Below, one piece after another: positions 25,496 through 33,433 of a DNA stretch of 64,000 nucleotides (position 1 is its first letter; each line of letters opens with the position of its first letter). This stretch comes from Acidobacteriota bacterium (GTDB lineage: Bacteria > Acidobacteriota > Aminicenantia > JBFLYD01), in the NCBI GenBank assembly GCA_040756905.1, contig JBFLYD010000035.1, positions 1 through 64,000 of the forward strand, given 5' to 3'. A model generated the notes under the pieces. That model saw only the letters and a list, made by a program, of their open reading frames with translations, was not told the DNA's origin and made no database searches. The position numbers were made by a program, and so were the translations under genes.

Positions 25496-25759
25496 CTATT
25501 TTTTGCTATTTTGTTTTAAATAATTGATTATAAATTCCTTCTCCAGCTGATTCAATTCCTTTCCATATTTTTCAATGTATTCATTCCATTTTTCAAATGA
25601 AAACTTAGATGGAGGAACCAAGTTATGACAAACAGTGCATTTTGACCTGTAAAGCTTTTCTCCTTCTGACATTCTGGTTTTTGGAACTACAGATGCACAT
25701 GAAAATAATAAAATCATTAAAATTAAAAATAGGGCTGTATTTTTTGTTAACACCTTCAT
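25496..25759 (-). CDS. Small c-type cytochrome lipoprotein, one haem
   Basis: The 87-residue protein has a lipoprotein signal (LLFSCASV, Cys21) and one haem-binding CTVCH motif. About 40 further residues follow, with EKWNEYIEKYGKELNQLEKE and a helix ending IINYLKQ typical of small class-I-like cytochromes. After CTVCH there is no methionine or histidine to serve as the sixth ligand, so the haem may be five-coordinate or use another residue or protein. It lies 213 bp downstream of an outer-membrane protein gene on the same strand, separated by repeat DNA. It may be cotranscribed and take part in periplasmic electron transfer. Confidence 0.75.
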   Translation of the reverse strand: MKVLTKNTALFLILMILLFSCASVVPKTRMSEGEKLYRSKCTVCHNLVPPSKFSFEKWNEYIEKYGKELNQLEKEFIINYLKQNSKK

Positions 25760-25870
25760 TCTTATTTACCCTTTCAAACTTTTCTCTGTGATGCTTTATA
25801 TTTTATTTCTTTTCTGAAAAATTTCAAATCTTATATACCTTTTCTCAATTATTTATTTCTTCTTACTCTC

Positions 25871-25928
25871 CAGTGTGCTGTCCCTTATATATCTTTACAG
25901 GCAAAAAAATCTCTCCGACAGCACACTG
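25871..25928. repeat. Short inverted repeat with CAGTGTGCTGTC arms
   Basis: A 58-bp unit has perfect 12-bp terminal arms, CAGTGTGCTGTC and GACAGCACACTG. These are the same end sequences as the larger insert at 24629-24819, so it is probably an internally deleted relative. It falls in the 213-bp gap 25760-25972, which otherwise shows no gene. Confidence 0.7.
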
Positions 25929-25937
25929 AAGGGGTAT

Positions 25938-25969
25938 GGGGCAGAATTGCGGCGAGCCTTCCGTTCAAT
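25938..25969. repeat. 32-bp direct repeat, copy 1
   Basis: Starts ggggcagaattgcggcgagc and ends cttccgttcaat. An identical copy lies at 26758-26789 in the same orientation. The two flank the body of the outer-membrane protein gene; this copy ends 3 bp before its stop codon. Confidence 0.85.
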
Positions 25970-25972
25970 TCG

Positions 25973-26800
25973 CTAAAGAGGTATCCCAAGAAGAAGCCTG
26001 AAATCTATGTCCCTGCTCTCCTTATTCAACCCTGAAGCTACTCCGAGGCTTATCCAGAATTTTGAAGTTGCAAAGGAAATTGTTGGGCCTAAATAATATC
26101 TCTTATCAGTGAAATTGCCCTTTGATTCTATCCCTAACTTTATTCTGGGGTTAAATTCATAACTCAGCCCTGTTGCATATTCATGCTTAGCATCTACTCC
26201 CTTTACAAGTTCTCTTTCAAGAATCTGATTGTATGAAAAATTTAGATTTCCAATTGTTTTTGCAAGTATCAATTTTCCTTCAAACTCCCCTGGCTCGGAC
26301 AAGTTTCCATTATTTTTATATTCAAGATAAATTAATGGGTCTAACGGGAATTGATCCCTTTCCCCTATTCTTATTCTTGTTCGAATTTTAAACCCATCAT
26401 AATAAAATGAAGAAGAATGTTCTGAATTTTTATGGGTGAACTGCTGATAAATACTTATATCCCAGTGATCAGTAATTCCATATTCAAGCTCCATCCAGTG
26501 TTTCCAGTTATTTACATTTCCTTTATCTTTATCAGGAAGCTCCAATGTTAAATAATACTCAATCTCAGCTCCTCCTCTATGCATCGTTAAATATTCATAT
26601 GTCCAGACATAACTTCTTCGGTCTGCATATAAGGAAAAAGAAGAAGCAACAATTAGAACTACGATTAACATTTTGAAGAACCCCGCGATAAATGGCGGGG
26701 ATTTTTCGACGGAAAGGTATTTTATCATTAATATTGCTCGCCTTACTTGCCCCTGAAGGGGCAGAATTGCGGCGAGCCTTCCGTTCAATAATTTTTTCAT
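25973..26800 (-). CDS. Outer-membrane beta-barrel-like protein under a Fur-type promoter
   Basis: I do not recognise the family with certainty. The mature part alternates aromatic and polar residues as in outer-membrane barrels (for example WKHWMELEYGITDHWDISIY and YFTDKRYYLGPTISFATS-like strands). I start at 26800, where AAAAAAGGAG is a good ribosome site; an ATG at 26830 is also in frame. The N-terminus is odd. About 35 residues encoded by repeat DNA (starting NGRLAAILPLQG) precede a normal signal core (FKMLIVVLIVASSFSLYA), so an in-frame insertion seems to lie at the start of the signal peptide. A c-type cytochrome lipoprotein follows on the same strand. Confidence 0.65.
   Translation of the reverse strand: MKKLLNGRLAAILPLQGQVRRAILMIKYLSVEKSPPFIAGFFKMLIVVLIVASSFSLYADRRSYVWTYEYLTMHRGGAEIEYYLTLELPDKDKGNVNNWKHWMELEYGITDHWDISIYQQFTHKNSEHSSSFYYDGFKIRTRIRIGERDQFPLDPLIYLEYKNNGNLSEPGEFEGKLILAKTIGNLNFSYNQILERELVKGVDAKHEYATGLSYEFNPRIKLGIESKGNFTDKRYYLGPTISFATSKFWISLGVASGLNKESRDIDFRLLLGIPL
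26758..26789. repeat. 32-bp direct repeat, copy 2
   Basis: Identical to 25938-25969. This copy encodes the start of the extra N-terminal peptide of the outer-membrane protein. Together with a GC-rich hairpin at about 26680-26700 (ccccgcgataaatggcgggg) it forms the inserted segment. Confidence 0.85.
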
Positions 26801-26845
26801 TTGACTCTCCTTTTTTAACAACTTTTTCATTTAAATATCATTAAT

Positions 26846-26860
26846 TGAGAATGAATCTCA
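26846..26860 (-). promoter_or_regulatory. Fur-box-like operator
   Basis: TGAGAATGAATCTCA is a 7-1-7 inverted repeat close to the classical Fur box (TGATAAT-n-ATTATCA), with one mismatch in the dyad. It lies directly downstream of the -10 box (26861-26866) and covers the expected transcription start. A bound Fur-type repressor would block initiation. A related regulator such as Zur or Mur would also be compatible. Confidence 0.7.
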
Positions 26861-26889
26861 ATATTAATATGAAAATATTTTTTTGTCAA
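26861..26889 (-). promoter_or_regulatory. Consensus promoter of the outer-membrane protein/cytochrome unit
   Basis: On the minus strand TTGACA (26884-26889), a 17-bp spacer and TAATAT (26861-26866). The next 200 bp upstream (26890-27093) is very AT-rich, and I see no gene or repeat there. Confidence 0.75.
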
Positions 26890-27093: not shown

Positions 27094-27795
27094 TCATTTT
27101 AATTCTCTTCCTATCCATACAACCTCACCTAAAATAATTTTTAATAAATCCCTGAATTTCCGTCGTTCAAGGATAATTTCTTCGTGCCCTCTTCTATTTT
27201 CAGGAATTAAAAAGATAAACCTTTCTGATATTTTCACTCTCCGAACCATAATCCCTCTCTCCTCTGAACTTTCAGGGATGTTTATTAAATAGAGTTTCTT
27301 AAATACTGGTTTCATCCTTTTATAACGATTTCTATCAATTAAAATTAAATCACCATCCTGAATGATAGGATACATGGAGTCCCCAAGAATCTGACATGCC
27401 AGAGGACTTACCAGATCTTTTATAAACTGGGATTCGAAGGCTTTCCAGTCTATTATCTGATTGGGAAGAATTACAGTCTGCCCCGCGTTGACAGGTTCTA
27501 CCACTGGGATGGACACGAATTGCTTTGTGAAGTATTGTCTGGAAGATTCTTTAACTTTAGATGGCGTTATTTCAAAATACATTTCTTTAAGTTCCTTATC
27601 TTCTTTAAAGAACTCCTCTAATGTCATTCCTAACCCATCATGAATTAATTTGTATAAAGTAAACCATCTTATATCTCCTTTATTATTTTCGATATTACTA
27701 AGGCGAGTCCTTTCTATTCCTGCTTTCTCAGCCACTTCCTCTTGAGATTTGCCCAAAGCTCGTCTTTTTTCTCTTAAGTAATTTCCGATTAACAT
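27094..27795 (-). CDS. XRE-family regulator with S24 (LexA/CI-like) domain
   Basis: The 233 residues begin with a helix-turn-helix (about 6-58, with LGKSQEEVAEKAGIERTRLS). The C-terminal LexA/S24 peptidase-like domain (about 95-225) has the serine of GDSMYP at Ser140 and an Ala104-Gly105 pair where the self-cleavage site is expected. The usual catalytic lysine (VKRL in LexA) appears as Arg185 in MVRRVK, so self-cleavage may be lost or altered. It is divergent from the exopolysaccharide operon and is the obvious candidate to regulate it. No phage genes are nearby, which argues against a prophage repressor. Confidence 0.85.
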   Translation of the reverse strand: MLIGNYLREKRRALGKSQEEVAEKAGIERTRLSNIENNKGDIRWFTLYKLIHDGLGMTLEEFFKEDKELKEMYFEITPSKVKESSRQYFTKQFVSIPVVEPVNAGQTVILPNQIIDWKAFESQFIKDLVSPLACQILGDSMYPIIQDGDLILIDRNRYKRMKPVFKKLYLINIPESSEERGIMVRRVKISERFIFLIPENRRGHEEIILERRKFRDLLKIILGEVVWIGRELK

Positions 27796-27925: not shown

Positions 27926-29224
27926 ATGAGAAGAAATACAGAATATATAGGTAAAGCAAAAGGAAAAACCAAAGAAATTAATAAAAAATCATTCTTTTTT
28001 GTATTAACTATCATAATATTCTTTTTATTAAATGGGAGAAATGAATTATATGGTGGGACGTGGATGGGCGAGGAGTTAGAGCGGTTGATAAAAGAGGCAA
28101 GGCTAAAAATCGGGCCATTCAGGATAAAAACTATTTTATTTTTAAATAACGCTGGCTATGACTCGAATGTGTACGGAACTCCTTATGACCCAATCAAGGA
28201 CTACACCTTTACCACAGGACCTGCTTTTTATATCTATTTGCCTTTAAAGAAAAGGATTTTATTTTCGGTATATGAGTCTCCTCAGTATGTATATTTCCTG
28301 GAAACAAAGAGAGAGAGGACATGGAATAATTACTTTAATGGAGAGGTTTATTTTGTCTTCAACAGATTTCTTTTTTCCTTTGGAAGAGGATTCTCTGATG
28401 CAAGGGAGAGATGGAATACAGAGATTGATATAAGGCCGCGGAGAAAAGAGGATAGTGTTCAAGGTTCTGTATTATGGCAGACTGCGAGGAGGACTTCATT
28501 CTCTATAAGGTACACAAAAGCAAATTATGATTATGAGAATCTTTACTATGAAAGATTTAACATAAGAGATCAATTGAACAGGGAGGAAAACTATGTAAAT
28601 TTTACAGGTTATTATCAACTTTTTCCAAGGACAAAATTTTTTTTAGATTTTGAGTATGGATTTTTCAATTTTGAAAATCCTTTGAGTTTCAGGAATTCTA
28701 AAAGCTATGCAATTTATGGAGGGTTTGAGTTTTCACCCTTTGGAGCAATAAGAGGAAGGATAAATCTTGGTTATAAATTCTTTGATTCTTTGATTCCTGA
28801 AAGAAAAGATTATAGGGGAATTGTTGGAAACACCAGTATGGATCTGCGGTTATTGAGGTTTTTTGCTTTGAGAGCATTATACAGAAGGGATATTCAGTTT
28901 TCATTATGGTATGACAATATTTATTTTCTTGAGAATAGGTATGGAAGTGGAGCATCGGTGTATTTATTTAGAAATATCAGAATAGATTATGACTACAGCT
29001 TAGGGAGAAATACTTATCCCCAGATAGAAAGAGAGCTCATAGCTCATAGCCTGTGGCAAAAAAGAGAGGATGATTATAAAATTCATTCGGTGGGAATTTA
29101 TTTCAGGATAAAGAGGGAGCTGGGGATTGGAGTCACTTTAAGTAAATGGATAAGAGATTCAAATCTGGACTGGGAGGATGATGAAAAGCTTTTTGTAGGA
29201 GCAAACCTTACATATAATTTTTGA
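27926..29224 (+). CDS. Outer-membrane beta-barrel protein heading the exopolysaccharide export operon
   Basis: The 432 residues have a long positively charged N-terminus, a hydrophobic signal core (about 22-42) and then a protein rich in alternating aromatic residues. It ends in Phe (GANLTYNF), as barrels do. Its place directly before a Wza-type gene suggests an outer-membrane partner for polymer export or surface attachment, comparable in position to GfcD/Wzi-like or PelB/AlgE-like porins. I see no motif that fixes the family. It overlaps the next reading frame by 4 nt if a TTG start is used there. Confidence 0.6.
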   Translation: MRRNTEYIGKAKGKTKEINKKSFFFVLTIIIFFLLNGRNELYGGTWMGEELERLIKEARLKIGPFRIKTILFLNNAGYDSNVYGTPYDPIKDYTFTTGPAFYIYLPLKKRILFSVYESPQYVYFLETKRERTWNNYFNGEVYFVFNRFLFSFGRGFSDARERWNTEIDIRPRRKEDSVQGSVLWQTARRTSFSIRYTKANYDYENLYYERFNIRDQLNREENYVNFTGYYQLFPRTKFFLDFEYGFFNFENPLSFRNSKSYAIYGGFEFSPFGAIRGRINLGYKFFDSLIPERKDYRGIVGNTSMDLRLLRFFALRALYRRDIQFSLWYDNIYFLENRYGSGASVYLFRNIRIDYDYSLGRNTYPQIERELIAHSLWQKREDDYKIHSVGIYFRIKRELGIGVTLSKWIRDSNLDWEDDEKLFVGANLTYNF

Positions 29225-29262
29225 ATGGCTGTGAATTAAGACAGATAAAGAACTATATTGAG

Positions 29263-30141
29263 ATGAGATACATAAACATTTTACGCTTTAGCCTATCTGC
29301 TATTTTTGTTTTTGTGTTTATATTTATATTTTTTAATGTTCTAACCCTGCTTTCTCAAGAAGAACAGGATATTTTTGTAAAGGAGTATACGATTGGACCG
29401 AAAGATTTACTTGAAATTAAAGTATTCGAGCTCCCTGAATTAAATCAAATTGTTAGAGTATCAGAGGATGGTTCAATTACAATTCCTTTACTTGGAAGAG
29501 TGATGGTTGGAGGTTTGACAAAGGATAGTATGGAGAAAAAACTTGCTGATCTTTTAGAGGAAAAATATCTAAAAAATGCACAGGTCTCTGTTTTTATAAA
29601 AGAATATCAGAGCAAGCGTGTTGCTGTGATTGGAGCAGTTGAGAAACCAGGGATGTATGAGTTAATAGGAAGGCAGACTCTTCTTCAAATAATTTCTCAG
29701 GCAGGAGGATTTACTGAAAAAGCAGCAAACGAATTGTTTGTGTTACGGGAAGAAAAGAATGGAATTACCACAAAAATTTCAATTGATTTAGAGGATTTAT
29801 TAATCAATGGAAATCAAAAACTCAATATTCCCCTTCAACCAAATGATGTAATAAATGTGCCTATGGATAAAATTATTCATGTTTATGTCTTTGGAGAAGT
29901 TAATAAGCCAGGTGCATTGGAAGTAAAGATGTCGAAAAAGATTACTTTACTTCAAGCGATTGCCCAGGCAGGAGGAACAACTGACAGAGCCTCGAAATCC
30001 GGTATTGTGATAAAAAGAAAAGGAAAGCATGGAAAAGAGATAAAAATTAAAGTGGATCTCAAGGATATAATTAAGGGAAAAAAGCCAGATATACAACTAC
30101 AAGAGGGAGATGTTGTATATGTCCCAGAATCAATATTCTAA
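29263..30141 (+). CDS. Wza-type polysaccharide export protein (SLBB)
   Basis: This is the outer-membrane/periplasmic channel component for capsule or exopolysaccharide export. It has an N-terminal hydrophobic signal (ending near LLSQEEQD) and the Poly_export domain (YTIGPKDLLEIKVFELPELN, then ITIPLLGRVMVGGLT). Two SLBB domains follow (VAVIGAVEKPGMYELIGRQT and VYVFGEVNKPGALEVKMSKK). I start at the ATG at 29263; a TTG at 29221 would add 14 unlikely residues. There is no lipobox, unlike E. coli Wza, so membrane attachment differs. Wzc follows 49 nt downstream. Confidence 0.9.
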   Translation: MRYINILRFSLSAIFVFVFIFIFFNVLTLLSQEEQDIFVKEYTIGPKDLLEIKVFELPELNQIVRVSEDGSITIPLLGRVMVGGLTKDSMEKKLADLLEEKYLKNAQVSVFIKEYQSKRVAVIGAVEKPGMYELIGRQTLLQIISQAGGFTEKAANELFVLREEKNGITTKISIDLEDLLINGNQKLNIPLQPNDVINVPMDKIIHVYVFGEVNKPGALEVKMSKKITLLQAIAQAGGTTDRASKSGIVIKRKGKHGKEIKIKVDLKDIIKGKKPDIQLQEGDVVYVPESIF

Positions 30142-30190
30142 CATGAATTGCAAAGCATGATGATAAATAAAAGGAAGGAGGGAAGGAGAT

Positions 30191-32608
30191 ATGGATAATT
30201 ATGATAGATTTGACGAGACAGAAATAAATCTTCGGGATTACTGGAATGTGGTGTGGAAGAGGAAATGGACTATTATAACTTTTACTCTGGTTTTAGTTGC
30301 AACTGTTATGATTATGACTTTTACTGCAAATCCCACTTACATTGCAAGGGGAAGTCTTTTGATTGAGAAAGAACCAAATATCTTCACATTTGAAGAGATA
30401 TTCCAGATTGAAACTTACAGGGATGATTACTATCAAACTCAATATAAATTATTACAGAGCAGGACTCTTGCAGACAAAGTTGTTGAGAGATTGAAGCTTT
30501 ATGAAAATGAGGAGTTTATAGGAAAACCAGGGAAGAGAAAAAAACCTGTTGATAAGTCTGACCCGGTTTTCAGAAGTTCTCTAATTGATTCATTCTTAGG
30601 AAGACTTGATGTAAAGCCAATGAGACAAACAAGACTGATTGAAATAAATTATAAATCTCATGACCCAAAACTTGCGGCAAATGCAGTAAATGCTCTTTTT
30701 GATTCATTCATAGAAATGAATATTGAAACCAAATATGAAGCAACTGAACAGGCAACAGAATTTCTGACGTCTCAAATTGCAAGCCAAAGAGCTGAAATTG
30801 AACAGAAACAGAGAGAACTCCAAGAGTATGGAGCAAAGAAAAACATCATCCCATTGAGTGAAAAAGAGACAACGATAATTGAGAAACTTGGTGAATTAAA
30901 CAGTGCTTTAACAGAAGCCCAGATCGATAGAGTAAGAAAGGAAGCTTATTATAATGAGATAAAAATCGCATCTTCTGATTATATTCCAGAAGCCTTGACA
31001 AATCCGCTTATCCAGAGGTTAAGGGAAGACTATGTGAAGCTGAGCAGGGAGTACATGAAAAAGCAGGAGACATTCAAACCTGATTATCCTGAGATGCAGA
31101 GGTTAAAGGCAGAGTTAGAGAGCGCTAAGAAATCCCTTGAGAGCGAAACCCAGAATTTGATTAAAGGAGCTTACTCAGATTATCAGGCTGCGCTGAAGAA
31201 GGAGAAATCTTTAGAGGAGGTTTTTAACAAGCAGAAGCAGGAGGCTATCCAGTTAAACAGCAATGCTATCTTGTACAATAGTTTGAAGATTGAGATAGAA
31301 AATAAGAAGAATTTACTTGAATCTTTGCTGAGGAGACAGAGTGAGACTGGAGTCTCTGCAAGATTAAGAGGATTGAGAACATCGAACATAAAGATTGTGG
31401 ATAGAGCAGAGATTCCTCTTTATCCATCGAGCCCAAAGAAAAGGCTTAACATGATGCTGGCTCTAATAATTGGGTTGTTTATAGGAATAGGGTTAGCGTT
31501 TTTCTTCGAGTATTTAGATAATTCAGTGAAGAGCTCTGAGGATATTGAAAGATATGCAGGTCTTCCTTCTTTAGGAGTTGTTATGACATTTAGTCCTGAT
31601 GGATTTAAGAAAAGTTATGGATATGGATACGGGCACAAGAAAAGAAGGTCAAAATCAAAGCTCGAAGCTCAAAAGTCAGAGGAAGAGAAAGATGAGGGGG
31701 GAGGAATAAGGATAAAGATTGGAGGGAAAGAATCAGTTGAAGACTCGAAGGATAAAAGTTACCCGGTTTCACAATTGGACAGTCACTCGGTTGGAAAGCA
31801 AGAGAGAATGGACTCTCCATTGTTTAAAGAAGTCGGCATGTTTGAACGTTTACATGTTGAGACGGAGAAAACAGTAAGGAGTGAAGAGTTAGGAGGGAAA
31901 GGAGTAAAAGAGATTCCGGAGATTAGGTCGATTGAGCTTATAACTTATTTTTCGCCAAAATCAAATTTCTCAGAAAGTTATCGCTCAATAAGAACAGCGC
32001 TGCTTTTATCTACAACTGATAAAAATTTGAAGTCATTAGTAATTTCAAGTCCTCTACCACAAGAAGGAAAAACTGCTACCATTTGTAATTTAGCGATTAC
32101 TCTTGCTCAAACAGAGAAGAAAGTTTTGATAGTGGATTCAGATTTAAGAAAGCCAAGGCAGCACAAGATATTCAAAATAAAGAATATCGATGGATTAACA
32201 AATTACCTGACTATGAATGTTGAGATGAAGGACTTAATCAAACATACTGAAATTCCAAATCTATTTCTTATTAACTCAGGTCCAGTTCCACCAAACCCCG
32301 CAGAACTTCTCGGCTCTGAAAAAATGGCAAACCTGATTGAGAGTTTGAAGCAATCATTCAATTACATATTATTTGATACACCGCCGATTCTTGCAGTCTC
32401 TGATGCAATGGTGATAGGATCCCATGTTGATGGAGTAATCCTCATTGTATGGGGAGGAAAAACCTCCCGTGATGCCCTGAAGCAAGCAAAAGAAAAGCTC
32501 GATTTGCTTAAATTAAAGACTTTAGGCGTTATCATTAACAATATCAAAATTCGCGAACATGAATATTACTACAAGCATTATTATTACCAGTATTATGGAG
32601 AACAGTAA
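30191..32608 (+). CDS. Wzc-type polysaccharide co-polymerase and tyrosine autokinase
   Basis: This 805-residue inner-membrane protein controls chain length and export. The N-terminal Wzz domain has a first transmembrane helix at about 28-48. A long coiled-coil periplasmic region follows (about 190-390). The second helix near 425-445 follows the proline-rich EIPLYPSSPKK. The cytoplasmic BY-kinase has Walker A PLPQEGKT (about 620-627), Walker A' VLIVDSDLRKP and Walker B ILFDTPP. The tail is a tyrosine cluster (eight Tyr in the last 14 residues) for autophosphorylation. A polar insert (about 475-590) separates the two halves. The phosphatase for this tail is the next gene. Confidence 0.93.
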   Translation: MDNYDRFDETEINLRDYWNVVWKRKWTIITFTLVLVATVMIMTFTANPTYIARGSLLIEKEPNIFTFEEIFQIETYRDDYYQTQYKLLQSRTLADKVVERLKLYENEEFIGKPGKRKKPVDKSDPVFRSSLIDSFLGRLDVKPMRQTRLIEINYKSHDPKLAANAVNALFDSFIEMNIETKYEATEQATEFLTSQIASQRAEIEQKQRELQEYGAKKNIIPLSEKETTIIEKLGELNSALTEAQIDRVRKEAYYNEIKIASSDYIPEALTNPLIQRLREDYVKLSREYMKKQETFKPDYPEMQRLKAELESAKKSLESETQNLIKGAYSDYQAALKKEKSLEEVFNKQKQEAIQLNSNAILYNSLKIEIENKKNLLESLLRRQSETGVSARLRGLRTSNIKIVDRAEIPLYPSSPKKRLNMMLALIIGLFIGIGLAFFFEYLDNSVKSSEDIERYAGLPSLGVVMTFSPDGFKKSYGYGYGHKKRRSKSKLEAQKSEEEKDEGGGIRIKIGGKESVEDSKDKSYPVSQLDSHSVGKQERMDSPLFKEVGMFERLHVETEKTVRSEELGGKGVKEIPEIRSIELITYFSPKSNFSESYRSIRTALLLSTTDKNLKSLVISSPLPQEGKTATICNLAITLAQTEKKVLIVDSDLRKPRQHKIFKIKNIDGLTNYLTMNVEMKDLIKHTEIPNLFLINSGPVPPNPAELLGSEKMANLIESLKQSFNYILFDTPPILAVSDAMVIGSHVDGVILIVWGGKTSRDALKQAKEKLDLLKLKTLGVIINNIKIREHEYYYKHYYYQYYGEQ

Positions 32609-32632
32609 AGATAGACTGTAAATTTAAGACTA

Positions 32633-33433
32633 ATGATCGACCTTCATGCTCATTTATTGCCTGATTGGGATGACGGGGCAGCAAACTGGGATGAAACTTT
32701 AAAGATGTGTGAAATAGCTTATGAGGATGGAATAAGAAAAATTGTATTTACTCCCCATCTGTATCGTTTGAATAAATACGATGATAATTTAAAGATACTT
32801 GAGGATAGGATGACAGAATTTAAAGAAATTACAAAAAAAATTCCTGTTGAATTTTTTAAAGGAGCTGAGGTTTTTGTGCATCATGAGATGGTTGAAAACA
32901 TAAGAAAGAATGATTTTACGATAAATTTATCAAATTATATTTTCGTAGAATTTCCCTCGGATTACATTCTTCCAGGGGTAAAGGATTTATTTTTTAACAT
33001 TATGCTTGGAGGATTTACTCCGATAATAAGTCATCCGGAGAGAAATAGCGTTTTCATGGAGAGGCCAGATTTACTATTTGAGTTGATTGAGATGGGGAGT
33101 CTGGCTCAGGTTACAGCAAAAAGCATAATCGGAGGTTTCGGTTCGGAAATAAAAAAATTCGCAAAACTACTTATGGTGAGCAATCTTGTTCATATTATAG
33201 CTTCAGATGCTCATGATTCAGAGAGAAGGCCGCCAAGGCTGAGCAAAGGAGTGGAAGAGGCTGCGAAAGTTGTAGGAGAGGAGAAGGCATTGGCTATGGT
33301 CACATCAATTCCACAAGCAATACTTGATAATAAAGAAATTCCTGATTATGGAGATCCTGTAAATCCAGTCAAAGGAAAGAGTTGGCGAATTACAGTGCCT
33401 AAATTCTTGAGGAAAAATGTTCTAATTTTTTAA
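32633..33433 (+). CDS. PHP-type protein-tyrosine phosphatase (CpsB/YwqE family)
   Basis: The PHP-fold metal-dependent phosphatase dephosphorylates the tyrosine tail of its Wzc/CpsD partner. The 266 residues have the signature MIDLHAHLLPDWDDGA, with the first metal ligands. FTPHLYR, the ISHPERN block and IASDAHDSERRPPRL supply the rest. The gene is 24 nt downstream of the kinase. CpsB replaces the low-molecular-weight Wzb in many phyla. Confidence 0.92.
   Translation: MIDLHAHLLPDWDDGAANWDETLKMCEIAYEDGIRKIVFTPHLYRLNKYDDNLKILEDRMTEFKEITKKIPVEFFKGAEVFVHHEMVENIRKNDFTINLSNYIFVEFPSDYILPGVKDLFFNIMLGGFTPIISHPERNSVFMERPDLLFELIEMGSLAQVTAKSIIGGFGSEIKKFAKLLMVSNLVHIIASDAHDSERRPPRLSKGVEEAAKVVGEEKALAMVTSIPQAILDNKEIPDYGDPVNPVKGKSWRITVPKFLRKNVLIF

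Follow-up and report, generated by a model that had tools for sequence, protein, structure and literature searches.

Conserved linkage with fur and feoB suggests an outer-membrane barrel and a monohaem lipoprotein of an Aminicenantia bacterium as a candidate iron-entry unit

Fur-regulated porins have been predicted beside feoAB in the X-feoA-feoA-feoB2 and psp units of Geobacter and Desulfuromonas (PMC545781), as well as in feoPABC of Acidithiobacillus (PMC2631029). In addition, porins of E. coli have been reported to feed Feo, in a cooperation without a cytochrome (PMC7315122). A different association of a porin with haem is that of Cyc2, whose N-terminal haem domain is joined to a porin of 16 strands (PMC8406198). 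We have analyzed a stretch of 64,000 nucleotides (hereafter the window; positions 1 to 64,000 of contig JBFLYD010000035.1, assembly GCA_040756905.1) from an acidobacterial genome of the class Aminicenantia, where a promoter, a Fur box, a barrel gene and a haem lipoprotein gene are found, all on the minus strand. An earlier note had read them as an iron-controlled module for reductive metal uptake or electron transfer, and had proposed searching for conservation of the gene pair and predicting the structure of the barrel.

The unit is preceded by a sigma-70-type promoter of the form TTGACA-17-TAATAT (26861..26889), with its hexamers at 26889-26884 and 26866-26861 separated by a 17-bp spacer, which is the top match of the region (10 of 12 consensus positions). 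Since 13 promoter-like matches were found there, versus 6.6 in shuffled sequences, the match alone has little meaning. Next to it, and with one base in common with the -10 hexamer, lies a 17-bp palindrome of the 7-1-7 type, TTGAGATTCATTCTCAA (26845..26861), which differs from TGANAATNATTNTCA by a single mismatch (p = 0.01 for the upstream region). The consensus promoter running into a near-perfect Fur box at the start site, as described in the earlier note, is indeed present at 26889-26845. The enterobacterial 19-bp Fur consensus was also tried, and gave matches with two or three mismatches only, none of them at the barrel promoter, the 7-1-7 form being the better fit. Because about 0.85 sites of this type are expected by chance per 64 kb, the sequence of the box would just be suggestive, and its weight comes from its position and conservation.

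The source genome (2.56 Mb in 69 contigs) was scanned for TTGAGAATGAATCTCAA with up to three mismatches, which returned 25 matches, versus 6 for the reversed control. The best of the other boxes, with one mismatch, is located directly 5' of a gene for a TonB-dependent receptor (L024, 1501-3017), where there is a second overlapping half-site region with a TGAGAATGAAATCAA-like half beside it. Another matching box precedes feoA-feoB (L032), just 3' of a TTGACA, so that the same box stands before established iron genes of this genome; among the other Fur-like sites with two or three mismatches, several are intragenic and were left out. Reading the palindrome at the barrel promoter as a Fur box is thereby supported at the level of sequence. 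Three Fur-family genes are present in the genome, one PerR-like and two Fur-like. At L012 (1474-2884) the gene for the PerR-like regulator is followed by those for rubrerythrin and a ferritin-like protein. Dispersed palindromic repeats built around GCAAGGCTAAAGCCTTGCCCTAC (families D1-D3) were also noticed in intergenic DNA between 1770 and 54600, and related copies precede the fur-like gene at L011 and lie near the L024 promoter.

The outer-membrane barrel gene (25973..26800) has its likely start at the ATG at 26800, behind the Shine-Dalgarno-like AAGGAGAG, within an open reading frame of 285 aa that extends over 25973-26830; the mature part corresponds to 25976-26629. Its orthologues are 38-61% identical to the window protein. 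The latter showed no match above cut-off in Pfam or NCBIfam and no sequence match in the PDB, in agreement with its initial description as a barrel-like protein of no recognised family; membership of a known porin family was rejected on the basis of these sub-cut-off scans and of the absent PDB match. The structure prediction, run with AlphaFold2 on 54 family members, returned a 12-strand barrel (pLDDT 92.2, pTM 0.85), and the same 12 strands were obtained when the input was an alignment of four sequences. Among solved structures, the closest folds belong to FapF, to the COG4313 channel 4rl8 and to the narrow porins NanC/KdgM, each at 10-14% identity. With the COG4313/PF13557 (Phenol_MetA_deg) channels there is a structural likeness (TM 0.70 to 4rl8), and a PF13557 barrel is the second barrel of several of the operons described below, but identity to 4rl8 is 10%, the window barrel does not match PF13557 and only one of the 54 members reaches E<=0.01 (E 2.9e-4). 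OprB gave no match in Pfam scans of those 54 members, so that the barrel family is not of the OprB type; the porins of feoPABC and of the Geobacter units have been reported as OprB-like or Porin_O_P-like, whereas the present barrel is 12-stranded and falls below every Pfam cut-off. Residues 1-20, before the first strand, hold an invariant D..S.VWTYEY motif and are ordered from residue 11 (pLDDT 91), and this segment would face the lumen. When positions were assigned to the inside or outside of the barrel by alternation, the invariant inward ones included E22, E24, Y26, E47, E49, D57, Y61 and Y77, as well as R83, R85, Y101, E103, K119, N134, E168 and R211. In the model, such conserved inward charges would be easier to reconcile with a selective channel than with a porin for general diffusion.

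The window copy of the gene has a peculiarity in its leader-coding part, which contains in frame a 112-bp genomic repeat (26675..26786; GAACGGAAGGCTCGCCGCAAT...GCGGGGTTCTTC) that is missing from the orthologues. It adds around 37 codons, and the corresponding residues stand before the hydrophobic core of the leader. Another 16 copies, near-full or long, are dispersed over the genome (loci L013-L022), including some within long open frames (L014, 674 aa; L015, 631 aa), an arrangement that recalls the Rickettsia palindromic elements. The long leader may still export the protein, or the ATG at 26671 may serve as start, and the insertion could also impair export. A fragment of the same repeat (25938..25966) is found directly past the barrel stop, in inserted sequence between the barrel and cytochrome genes. 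These are separated by 213 bp of partly repeat-derived sequence, with no terminator found between them on the minus strand; this gap counts against taking cotranscription as given, and we consider it putative. On the other side of the promoter, the place that fur occupies in relatives is taken by a gene for a regulator with HTH_3 and Peptidase_S24 domains (LexA/CI-like; 27094-27795, minus strand). Farther on, a gene for a BBP2_2-type barrel followed by polysaccharide-export, chain-length/tyrosine-kinase and YwqE-like genes (27926-33433, plus strand) makes up a capsule or exopolysaccharide export cluster.

The one-haem lipoprotein that had been noted downstream of the barrel was confirmed at 25496..25759. 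It has 87 aa (around 66 in the mature protein), a lipobox (LLFSC), a single CTVCH and a conserved Y-G near the C-terminus, and it aligns over its full length with the rest of its family (30-43% identity), with the lipobox Cys, LY, CXXCH and YG conserved. The lipobox Cys and CXXCH are invariant in the 14 sequences of the family alignment, as corresponds to c-type cytochrome lipoproteins. Matches to Pfam c-type cytochromes are weak and sub-threshold. With DHC and class I monohaem cytochromes (PF09626, PF13442) the lipoprotein has in common CXXCH and a downstream W/Y pattern, and the PF09626 profile gives weak matches, with one family member exceeding the cut-off; unlike them, it has no invariant Met after CXXCH in the 14-member alignment, and the distal Met of class I is therefore not conserved. 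The Tyr of an '(E/D)(K/E)YG' motif is present in 13 of the 14 proteins, with His in the remaining one (L069). At this position Met is found in the protein of another acidobacterial genome, G232 ('LLEKMAE', L144), and in two fused proteins presented below, L143 and L145 ('VNEMGPL' and 'VREMAPL'). This could correspond to the distal haem position, in which case the haem of the lipoprotein form would be Tyr/His-ligated or five-coordinate. Asp never occurs at residue +2 after the lipid-bearing Cys. In E. coli, lipoproteins without Asp at +2 are anchored in the outer membrane, which predicts the same location for this one.

With one genome scanned per species, 60 barrel loci were obtained, composed of a core of 44, a branch of 15 and one distant locus. 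The core is distributed among Omnitrophota, Saganbacteria/WOR-1/Margulisbacteria, Planctomycetota, Zixibacteria, Elusimicrobia, Nitrospirae, Lentisphaerae, Aminicenantes and one further bacterium, and the branch is mostly from Ignavibacteria, Kapaibacteria and Marinimicrobia. A fur gene is adjacent to the barrel gene in 31 of the 44 core loci, covering several phyla, and in none of the 15 of the branch. The nearest solved relatives of the linked regulators are Fur proteins, and the residues aligning with the metal sites of E. coli Fur are invariant. At p<=0.05, Fur boxes were detected ahead of fur in 24 of 30 upstream regions and ahead of the barrel gene in 28 of 60, and they are present too in front of Nitrospirae barrels that have no adjacent fur. 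In the two closest relatives within the class (Aminicenantes JdFR-78 and JdFR-80), fur is directly followed by the barrel gene, and both genes are preceded by Fur boxes. Together with the boxes before feoAB and the TonB-dependent receptor, these data support the proposed iron control. One could think of a general or carbohydrate-type porin, given that sugar-acid porins are among the fold neighbours and that the Ignavibacteria/Marinimicrobia branch has neither fur nor the cytochrome, with coincidental Fur control and the haem lipoprotein as an unrelated neighbour; yet the frequency with which fur is adjacent in the core, along with the adjacency of the cytochrome across several phyla, speaks against coincidence, and we regard such an explanation as very improbable. 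The barrels of that branch (L091-L107; around 37-46% identity), which lack Fur boxes with the weak exception of L092, possibly have another substrate. Within the class of the window, just 3 of 142 genomes have the core barrel, and the highest sequence identity (61%) is to proteins from Omnitrophota, so that spread of the barrel by horizontal transfer appears likely from these comparisons.

Conservation within the class would by itself lead to the conclusion that the pair is not conserved, as the barrel is present in three core genomes and the cytochrome only in the window, but the distant phyla contradict this. When genes neighbouring the barrel were clustered, the monohaem lipoprotein family was independently recovered at position +1. 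Of the 41 core loci with at least 400 bp of downstream sequence, 13 have it directly downstream of the barrel gene, a count that includes weaker family members, in 5-6 lineages (Saganbacteria/WOR-1, Planctomycetota, Zixibacteria, Omnitrophota and one further bacterium). These loci occupy six separate places on the barrel tree, with five changes by parsimony. Among 396 genomes of the window's phylum, G232, from another acidobacterial family, provides an additional case (L114, 2-2435), in which a gene for an FTR1 iron permease is divergent from fur, the barrel and the cytochrome lipoprotein, with no feoB in the stretch seen. A 347-aa open frame around the cytochrome of G232 was discarded as an overlapping frame, the lipoprotein being its C-terminal end. 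The pairing, whose conservation had been left to be checked, is therefore maintained in distant phyla.

The barrel must also be able to work without the cytochrome, because 28 of the 41 core loci have none. This figure favours an interpretation in which the barrel, as a porin for iron entry, would do without a redox partner, and the haem lipoprotein would be an optional accessory (a periplasmic electron carrier, or a haem-based sensor of redox state, NO or O2) that shares the operon only through the same need under anoxic, iron-poor conditions. The haem domain without an invariant Met would be compatible with it, as would the porin-Feo combinations predicted for Geobacter and Acidithiobacillus (PMC545781, PMC2631029) and documented without a cytochrome in E. 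coli (PMC7315122). Against this, the cytochrome family sits directly at the barrel and nowhere else in the genomes searched: a profile search of 28 genomes located it at the barrel locus in all three positive controls, and the remaining 25 gave a single weak match, with an internal stop codon, so that where not adjacent to the barrel it would be essentially absent from the genome. In addition, same-class genomes fuse the haem domain of the cytochrome to a porin. Taking both sides into account, an optional role of the lipoprotein seems a serious alternative, although a rather doubtful one.

The fused genes come from two genomes of the same class as the window (L143, 1486-2715, plus strand; L145, 520-1743, minus strand), and their products combine an N-terminal domain of the haem-lipoprotein family with a larger, C-terminal barrel of the Porin_4/Porin_O_P type. 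Just upstream of the one in L143 lies a gene whose 406-aa product contains four cytochrome c domains. The fusions suggest that the haem domain of this family can act directly at a porin, and they have the general architecture of Cyc2, which, like the unit in the window, associates one c-type haem with an outer-membrane barrel (PMC8406198). That likeness, and the mere presence of a monohaem protein with a barrel, could point to a respiratory electron conduit of the outer membrane (Cyc2-like or Mtr-like), devoted to extracellular iron oxidation or reduction and not to nutrition. However, the present unit differs from Cyc2 in having separate genes, a lipid-anchored haem protein, a barrel of 12 strands instead of 16 and a linkage to Fur and Feo instead of a respiratory one. 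The Cyc2-specific motif AXPXFAR[Q/K][T/Y] before CXXCH is absent from the 14 cytochromes and, by inspection, from both fusions, and membership of Cyc2 was rejected on account of the motif, the strand number and the separate genes. There is, moreover, a single haem, the barrel has fewer strands than that of MtrB (26), and the Fur boxes along with the linkage to FeoB, FTR1 and DtxR indicate nutritional iron. We thus consider a respiratory conduit unlikely.

The linkage to iron uptake genes is extensive. FeoB homologues are encoded in 23 of the 60 barrel loci (Pfam FeoB_N was confirmed in L052), and FeoA, or a DtxR-like regulator with Fe_dep_repr_C and FeoA domains, in 14. The gene order fur-barrel-cytochrome-feoB is found in L071, L076 and L079, and in L059, L060 and L061 a gene for a PF13557-type barrel sits between the cytochrome gene and feoB; a second barrel of this family is present in nine loci, and a cupredoxin gene in L058. 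Judging from gene context, this operon content, with FeoB, DtxR/FeoA and the order described, assigns both the barrel and the cytochrome to nutritional iron metabolism. Thus, between the two roles contemplated in the earlier note, FeoB linkage favours metal uptake over a respiratory one. As in feoPABC (PMC2631029) and the Geobacter units (PMC545781), for which iron entry was proposed, orthologous loci combine feoAB with the gene of an outer-membrane porin under a Fur box. This is not so in the window, where the barrel gene has no fur beside it and feoAB lies elsewhere, behind a box of its own, and this counts against the proposal made here. Neither a monohaem lipoprotein downstream nor a conserved fur in front has been described for feoPABC or the Geobacter units, and a unit combining a barrel of the present family with the haem lipoprotein and fur was not described in the literature searched, the coverage of which leaves out most subscription journals.

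The explanation that we favour, and consider quite probable, is that of a Fur-repressed outer-membrane channel for iron entry that supplies Feo and has a haem subunit in the periplasm, which is probably a ferric reductase. Comparison among genomes supports the Fur control or linkage, the conservation of the pair and the Feo linkage, and the barrel fold is predicted. According to this scheme, Fur with Fe(II) would cover the -10 hexamer and start site and repress the barrel-cytochrome unit, which would be transcribed once iron is short and Fur leaves the box. The 12-strand channel, with its ordered N-terminal segment and its conserved, charged and tyrosine-rich lumen, would admit iron, free or chelated, to the periplasm. 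At the mouth of the channel, the haem lipoprotein, lipid-anchored on the periplasmic side, would give electrons, by which iron would come in as Fe(II) or be kept in that form, and transport inwards would be carried out by FeoAB, or by FTR1 in G232. We infer that iron is the substrate, that both proteins are in contact and that the haem serves for reduction and not for oxidation or sensing. With 12 strands, a barrel has too little room inside for a haem domain, which counts against the scheme. The known partners of FTR1 use oxidation, and because FTR1 is the neighbour in G232, the haem could serve for oxidation there. A more specific version seems conceivable, if somewhat speculative: a two-subunit porin-cytochrome reductase for assimilatory iron, in which the lipid-anchored monohaem cytochrome, without Met as haem ligand, would serve the periplasmic mouth of the narrow channel, reduce the entering Fe(III) and hand Fe(II) to Feo, spread by transfer across several little-cultured phyla and with the fused forms as intermediates towards Cyc2-like proteins.

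The way in which Fe(II), or siderophore-free Fe(III), crosses the outer membrane ahead of Feo is poorly defined. The present unit would work like the Fur-regulated porins linked to Feo, with another barrel family, a dedicated haem lipoprotein and, at most loci, fur itself. The conserved fur-barrel-cytochrome-feoB operon, found in Omnitrophota, WOR-1/Saganbacteria, Zixibacteria, Planctomycetota, Aminicenantes and others, offers a specific channel and a reductase as candidates for this step, both outside protein families, and would represent a marker of iron acquisition in uncultured anaerobes.
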